Source: Heliomicrobium modesticaldum Ice1 (GTDB lineage: Bacteria; Bacillota; Desulfitobacteriia; Heliobacteriales; Heliobacteriaceae). Taken from it: 64,000 bases of DNA. Positions 10,614 through 11,667 of the stretch are shown one piece after another (position 1 is the first letter of the stretch; each line of letters starts with the position of its first letter). The position numbers and the translations under genes were made by a program. The stretch covers positions 1,946,501-2,010,500 of the forward strand of contig NC_010337.2 of the NCBI RefSeq assembly GCF_000019165.1, given 5' to 3'. The notes beneath the pieces were generated by a model. That model saw only the letters and a list, made by a program, of their open reading frames with translations, did no database searches and was not told the DNA's origin.

Positions 10614-10642
10614 TTGAAAATATTGCAGCGCCATCCTATAAT
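10614..10642 (+). promoter_or_regulatory. Sigma-A promoter of the 47-residue Cys-rich gene
   Basis: TTGAAA, exactly 17 bases, TATAAT: a near-consensus promoter. It starts about 70 bases before the small open frame at 10720 and has no other plausible target. Confidence 0.75.
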
Positions 10643-10719
10643 AAAAGAAAATTAACACATTCACAAAGTGGCGGACAAGAAAAGACGGAGCATGAGAATG
10701 AGACAAGGAGGCGCTTGAG

Positions 10720-10863
10720 ATGACGCAAGCGGTAGTCAAGATCTTTCCCGCCCCGGAGATCGACCCGTTGCTGATGTGTGTGCACCAACCCCATGAATGT
10801 GTCCACTGCGGCGGCTGCGGCTTCTCGATGCTGGAAACGGAAGTCCCGGCTGAATTGCAATGA
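10720..10863 (+). CDS. 47-residue Cys/His-rich protein, unknown function
   Basis: Short gene with every sign of real expression: near-consensus promoter at 10614, AAGGAGG at 10705-10711 with 8-base spacing to ATG, and a hairpin at 10930 downstream. The product is acidic to neutral with no signal peptide. Its centre carries C20, H22, H25, C27, H29, C30 and C33, i.e. an HxxHxCxHCGGC cluster that looks suited to bind zinc, iron or an iron-sulfur centre. I recognise no family. It sits between the divergent FAD protein and the convergent sod pseudogene. It could be a metallochaperone, a small ferredoxin-like or zinc-ribbon fragment, or a precursor peptide; none can be chosen from sequence alone. 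Confidence 0.7.
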   Translation: MTQAVVKIFPAPEIDPLLMCVHQPHECVHCGGCGFSMLETEVPAELQ

Positions 10864-10929
10864 CAAAGGGCCTCCGCGCTAGGGCCCGGAGATCGCCCTG
10901 AGCAGCCCATGACCAACGAAATGACCAGA

Positions 10930-10955
10930 AGCCCGCGATCCTGCGGGCTTTCCTG
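10930..10955 (+). terminator. Hairpin terminator after the 47-residue gene
   Basis: AGCCCGC / GCGGGCT stem with a six-base loop, followed by TTCCTGTTTC, a weak T-rich tail. Confidence 0.6.
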
Positions 10956-10983: not shown

Positions 10984-11468
10984 TTAACGGTAACTACCCG
11001 GGATGAGCGGCAATTGACCCTGCATGGCCAGCAGCAGGCGCGTCTCCACCTCGATCCAATTGACCAACTGCCACCAGGCATTGATGTAGTCGCGGCGGCG
11101 GCGCTGAACTGCTCTTGAAAACTGCGGAGGTTACCGAAATAGGCGGTCACTTGGCCGCGCGTATGGGGCCCTGGTTGCCTGCCCCGTCCGGGCAGGGCCA
11201 TGATCGCCCAGTAGAGGCTGTGCAGGATGTGACCGGAACCGTGGAAAGCCAACTCGCGCTCCCAGTGCTTGATCAGGGAAAAATCGTTCTGCTGGCGCGC
11301 TTCGACCAGTTTGCGTTCCGCTTTGTTTAATCCTTCCACATAGGACAAGTGGTGGCGGTCGTGGTGGAGCTTCAGCGTTTCCGCACCGATCACCGGTTCT
11401 AAAGCGTTGTAAGGATAGGGGAGGGGCGGCAGTTGATGGCCGCCGGGAGGAATCATGAGATAAGACAT
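10984..11468 (-). pseudogene. sod: Fe/Mn superoxide dismutase, internally deleted and frameshifted
   Basis: The 5' part, from ATG 11468 behind AAGGAG (11476-11481), encodes a normal Fe/Mn-SOD N-terminus: PPLPYPYNALEPVI, the first metal His in LKLHHDRHHLSYV and the second in AFHGSGHILHSLYW. Near 11091-11104, in a GCGGCGGCGGC run, the frame jumps, and after a shift it continues as RRRDYINAWWQLVNW, the normal SOD C-terminus, ending at TAA 10984. About 55-60 residues are missing between the two parts, including the usual Gly-Ser-Gly-Trp core and the DVWEHAYY segment that gives the third and fourth metal ligands. The product could not bind metal normally. The reading is a deletion, perhaps through the short GCC/GGC repeat; an assembly error is possible but would need to lose about 170 bases. 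Confidence 0.85.
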
Positions 11469-11667
11469 AGAACGTCTCCTTCCGTCCGCATAGGGTCGTT
11501 TCACCTTTTTTGACGTTTTCATTTTTGCTTCCCAAGGTTTCGCTTCATAGTTACTGGCTGGAATCGGAACCTATACCAAGCGCCAGCTTTTCCCAAATAG
11601 CCAGCGAATCTGTGCCGCGCCGGCAGGAATGCTACCTCGACAGAAAAAGCTTCGCGAAGGCCCTTTC

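Follow-up and report, generated by a model that had tools for sequence, protein, structure and literature searches.

A short gene of 47 codons, referred to here, together with its product, as Cys47, lies in the 64,000-nucleotide stretch of Heliomicrobium modesticaldum DNA that was analyzed (the window), the source genome being a single contig of 3,075,407 bases. Its signals, and the remains of a neighboring gene, are collected in Table 1.

Table 1. Features of the Cys47 locus and of the adjoining dead gene, in window coordinates
Feature	Position	Strand	Basis
sigma-70-type promoter, TTGAAA-17-TATAAT	10614..10642	+	11/12 consensus matches; CTTGAAA in 5/5 genomes
Candidate operator AAATTAACACATTCACAA	10649..10666	+	Invariant in 5 genomes except one A-to-G
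Shine-Dalgarno AAGGAGG	10705..10711	+	8-base spacer to ATG, read in sequence
Cys47 gene	10720..10863	+	47 codons, ATG to TGA; homologues, alignment, codon-level purifying selection
Hairpin with U-rich tail, probable intrinsic terminator	~10926..10954	+	RNA folding, here and in 3 relatives
Dead Fe/Mn superoxide dismutase gene (sod)	10987-11504	-	Residues 148-190 missing and frame change

That the frame has its own promoter, ribosome binding site and terminator had been proposed in an earlier note made from the letters alone, and all three signals are borne out. The promoter hexamers (TTGAAA at 10614-10619, TATAAT at 10637-10642) are 17 bp apart, the -10 element being TACAAT in Heliobacterium, and GGAGGCGC at the Shine-Dalgarno site is conserved in all five genomes that have Cys47. 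The terminator hairpin folds strongly but its T-run is weak, and a simple terminator scan of the window does not list it. Hairpins with T-rich tails occupy the same place in three relatives (G001, G002 and G008) with unrelated stem sequences: Cys47 travels as a self-contained unit.

Cys47 is a genuine gene, restricted to the lineage comprising Heliomicrobium and Heliobacterium. It is present in five of nine heliobacterial genomes, three of Heliomicrobium and two of Heliobacterium (H. mobile and H. chlorum), and no homologue was found in the remaining four. Identity is 96% and 80% in the two other genomes of the source genus and 61-62% in the two of Heliobacterium. The earlier note had looked to relatives for disrupted frames as grounds for doubt, and for Cys/His positions kept amid synonymous change as support; the four homologues have neither stops nor frameshifts, and for the four cysteines and H25 the supportive pattern is what alignment and codon analysis reveal. 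Within the genus dN/dS is 0.06-0.12, indicative of strong purifying selection, while between the genera synonymous sites are saturated and 22% of nonsynonymous sites differ. Eleven of the first 39 codons vary synonymously only, and the codons for C20 and C30 change across homologues without change of residue. As the homologues hold the frame despite so many synonymous changes, Cys47 is not a chance open reading frame. A stretch of seventeen bases, CAACCCCATGAATGTGT (codons 23-27 and the start of 28), is identical in all five genomes, synonymous changes being common elsewhere in the frame.

The gene is previously unclassified and without a known family, as had been suspected: Pfam and NCBIfam yield no family at E values up to 10, and matches to PHROGs (E 0.53) and to PDB profiles (best a zinc finger, E = 1) are at chance level. 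Nothing was found on it in the literature. Outside the family Heliobacteriaceae, no credible member was found in ~75 further genomes of the class or in several hundred of the phylum. Two of the best phylum-wide profile matches were inspected and both were judged to be chance, one (G105, E 1.6e-5) being in the wrong frame over a flagellar operon and the other (G385) antisense over two long, conserved-looking genes. Viral homologues were likewise rejected, the two matches being short QPHECVHCG stretches in unrelated proteins of ~250 residues.

Among the 153 ATG-started frames of 40-80 amino acids in the 64 kb window, Cys47 alone has at least seven Cys or His residues within 14. The earlier note took all seven as ligands, of which only five (C20, H25, C27, C30 and C33) are invariant in the five homologues. 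Two of the three histidines do not share this conservation: position 22 is occupied by Tyr in Heliobacterium, and three genomes have Gln or Glu in place of H29, so that neither is a required ligand. Also invariant are MTQ, P10, E13, D15, LLMCV, QPHECV and CGGCG; the tail is less conserved than the rest, and the Heliobacterium members have an extra Cys at position 36. The product is acidic, has a mass of 5.1 kDa and is probably soluble, and the conserved Cys cluster is compatible with the metal or iron-sulfur binding originally suggested. Cys47 is probably metal-binding, judging from these residues, the plain reading of which would be a single Cys4 site, C-x6-C-x2-C-x2-C (C20, C27, C30 and C33), at which invariant H25 perhaps helps. 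CVxCGGC resembles the start of the [4Fe-4S] motif, and since C-V-x-C-G-G-C corresponds to the first three-quarters of the ferredoxin cluster motif, a [4Fe-4S] cluster seems more likely than zinc at this site, C-x2-C-x2-C being a motif that would suit zinc too. AlphaFold2 yielded no confident model of Cys47 (mean pLDDT 51).

The surroundings of the gene are less informative than first thought. In the source genus Cys47 is divergent from genes for an FAD-dependent protein (PF21688) and a NapH-like iron-sulfur protein, and the sod gene, described earlier as dead, is indeed so. An intact sod is present in G002 (L031:10255-10944), farther from Cys47. In Heliobacterium the neighbors are unrelated, namely genes for an Eco57I-type methylase, an alpha/beta hydrolase and a fumarylacetoacetate hydrolase. 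Assignment of function from neighbors was rejected because the neighborhood changes between genera, and the FAD gene and dead sod, not being conserved neighbors, say little on what Cys47 does, contrary to the hint drawn from them in the earlier note. The redox role proposed there is still favored, on the strength of the motif that the promoter has in common with ndh genes and not because of what lies alongside.

The strongest DNA conservation at the locus is in the leader, where a block just after the -10 element that includes TTAACACATTCACAA hardly differs among the five Cys47 genomes. A riboswitch or other leader RNA was considered and rejected, as Rfam has no family matching the region and the leader folds no better than its shuffles (z -1.06). 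No second exact copy of the 15-base core exists in any of the nine heliobacterial genomes. A looser motif, TTAANNNNTTCACAA, has 23 matches in the five Cys47 genomes against 5 for a backwards control. Thirteen of these also have WWR in front (WWRTTAANNNNTTCACAA) where ~0.2 would be expected from base composition, the WWR refinement having been chosen after the sites had been seen. Five of the 13 are the Cys47 promoters, five precede or adjoin ndh (including the second ndh in Heliobacterium), two (G001 and G002) precede a gene just downstream of ndh whose product begins MREFW, and one is elsewhere. The ndh product is clearly a type II NADH dehydrogenase, NDH-2 (PDB 4nwz, E 5e-125). Occurrence of the shared motif upstream of ndh is statistically unexpected, and, as would befit a regulon that includes ndh, it recurs there across species: Heliorestis, which lacks Cys47, retains it ahead of ndh in G003 and ahead of the MREFW gene in both G003 and G007.

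The sites are not all independent, since those of ndh and of the MREFW gene lie within a longer block common to both and so derive in part from one duplication; the flanks differ at the second ndh and at the G003 ndh, on account of which the motif itself stays convincing. With the motif common to the upstream regions of ndh and of a second small gene, even in species without Cys47, it is probable that Cys47 is part of a small ndh regulon, under the control of either Rex or a LysR-type regulator encoded beside ndh. The MREFW protein itself is conserved, has ~120 residues and begins MREFWKRLF (L199:3954-4316; L185; L186); in G002 its gene is downstream of ndh and shares the upstream motif of the latter. 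It has no Pfam match.

Which of the two regulators would act is a matter of balance. The reverse complement of the candidate operator is TTGTGAA-N4-TTAATTT (in general form TTGTGAA-N4-TTAATWW), which contains one exact Rex half-site, and ndh is a known Rex target in Bacillus. Set against the published Rex consensus, TTGTGAANNNNTTCACAA (PMC6391272), or against TTGTTAANNNNTTAACAA, the Cys47 site has one half-site exact and the other matching at 4/7. The case for Rex is weak, in that classical Rex palindromes in their full form have no excess over control and the motif is absent from all of nine rex loci. Several Rex-sized proteins with a CoA-binding domain are encoded by heliobacteria (three Rex-type proteins in H. 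modesticaldum), their naming as Rex resting on domain and length. In H. modesticaldum, G002, G003 and the two Heliobacterium genomes the gene immediately upstream of ndh is of LysR type, and in four of these five the motif is inside the lysR-ndh gap, the exception being G002 where it is between ndh and the MREFW gene. Rex may tentatively be put forward as acting at the motif, with the LysR-type protein a somewhat less probable choice for that role, although as a candidate it is to be ranked equal to Rex. Upstream of the shared motif, the lysR-ndh gap also has a dyad, GGCAATATTGAC ... GTCAATATTGCC (L166, at G000:C1:1537132; L160; L176), possibly a second operator.

Together these features suggest that Cys47 is a soluble Cys4 metalloprotein, with [4Fe-4S] likelier than zinc, made together with NDH-2 under redox control, a reading to which we would give a probability a little below one half (about 0.48). 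Transcription would start at the gene's own sigma-70 promoter, with a regulator binding AAATTAACACATTCACAA just downstream of the -10 element and keeping Cys47 off until the NAD(H) pool becomes reduced; the identical regulator would act on the ndh genes. C20, C27, C30 and C33, perhaps with H25, would form one metal site, more likely for [4Fe-4S], and the protein would take part in the NADH/menaquinone redox response, whether as a small carrier of electrons, a redox buffer or a partner protein. A bolder version, in which Cys47 is a new, minimal iron-sulfur protein with a single cluster, among the smallest known, that is co-made with NDH-2 under a heliobacterial redox regulator and, in these anoxygenic phototrophs, accepts electrons from it, donates electrons to it or serves as its redox switch, is quite doubtful.

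A zinc-binding adaptor or regulator, whose Cys4 site would be structural and which would bind protein or nucleic acid without electron transfer, would be served by four invariant Cys, invariant H25 and small size, all of which fit a zinc knuckle; that a zinc finger heads the PDB profile matches also inclines that way, though at chance level. What counts the other way is the resemblance of the CVxCGGC spacing to ferredoxin cluster motifs and the motif shared with ndh, which points to redox chemistry, and both of these are compatible with zinc as well. On balance zinc seems rather unlikely. A further proposal, more about descent than mechanism and so overlapping both the preferred [4Fe-4S] reading and that of zinc, is that Cys47 belongs to an 8-Cys family, from whose other members it would differ by shortening and divergence while sharing their function. 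This unnamed family of 55-70 residue proteins (alignment A4; L040:1450-1662, L060, L062 and others), scattered through Bacillota, has the pattern C-x6/7-C-x2-C-x2-C-x2-C-x7-C-x2-C-x2-C; there is no Pfam model for it, and AlphaFold2 gave no usable model (mean pLDDT 62). Its first four Cys are spaced like those of Cys47 and its fifth is in register with C36 of the Heliobacterium members, A4 members outscore Cys-fixed shuffles (0/200 reach the observed mean), and profile-profile comparison (hhalign) gives E 2.7e-4. The associated hhalign probability is only 42%, and a chance out-of-frame hit reached E 1.6e-5 with the same profile, so that scores near that level are unreliable; Cys47 also lacks the second Cys triplet and has an extra 19-residue N-terminus. 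A distribution that takes in 26 of 199 genomes from the phylum and 39 of 83 from the class would suit descent, but none of the nine heliobacteria has a member. Homology is possible from these comparisons, and the proposal as a whole may be right while falling short of likely.

Being small, with Cys concentrated in its C-terminal half and conservation falling off in the tail, Cys47 might instead bring to mind the precursor peptide of some ribosomally synthesized natural product, with residues 1-19 as leader and the Cys-rich part as core. Given that the putative core hardly varies, that the gene has its own promoter and terminator and that a maturation enzyme is adjacent in none of the contexts examined, this is highly improbable. 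Least credible is that the frame arose by chance where what is conserved is a non-coding RNA or regulatory DNA. The concentration of DNA conservation in the leader and the identity of CAACCCCATGAATGTGT in all five genomes are what such DNA might display, but with the protein kept through many synonymous changes, no stop or frameshift, no Rfam match and unexceptional leader folding, the codon pattern has already largely refuted it.

Annotation often misses small cysteine-rich proteins, and Cys47 is one for which there is clear evidence of selection together with a defined promoter. The motif links it to the oxidation of NADH in heliobacteria, and how these organisms manage NADH and the quinone pool in the light is only partly understood. 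As gene deletion is already in use in H. modesticaldum, in at least one published account (PMC12016533), the role of Cys47 is directly testable.

In relation to known systems, the closest for the putative metal site are the [4Fe-4S] ferredoxins (Pfam Fer4 clan; CxxCxxCxxxCP), of whose motif C27-V-x-C30-G-G-C33 would be the first three-quarters, including the Gly after the second Cys. Cys47 differs in that the CP cysteine is absent from all five homologues, in that C20, seven residues upstream, would be needed as the fourth ligand, and in being smaller, with no second motif and no Fer4 match. Features in common with the 8-Cys family are the way in which the first four Cys are spaced, the M-C-V at the motif start and, in Heliobacterium, the fifth Cys. 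In A4, however, eight Cys are invariant and a C-terminal segment is conserved as well, where Cys47 has four Cys (five in Heliobacterium) and the additional N-terminus. For its control, the counterpart is the Rex regulon of Gram-positive bacteria (PMC6391272); here the other half-site is TTAATWW, the nine rex loci are without the motif and there is no enrichment of the full palindrome, while the exact half-site, the 4-base spacer and proximity of the motif to ndh are features that the two share.
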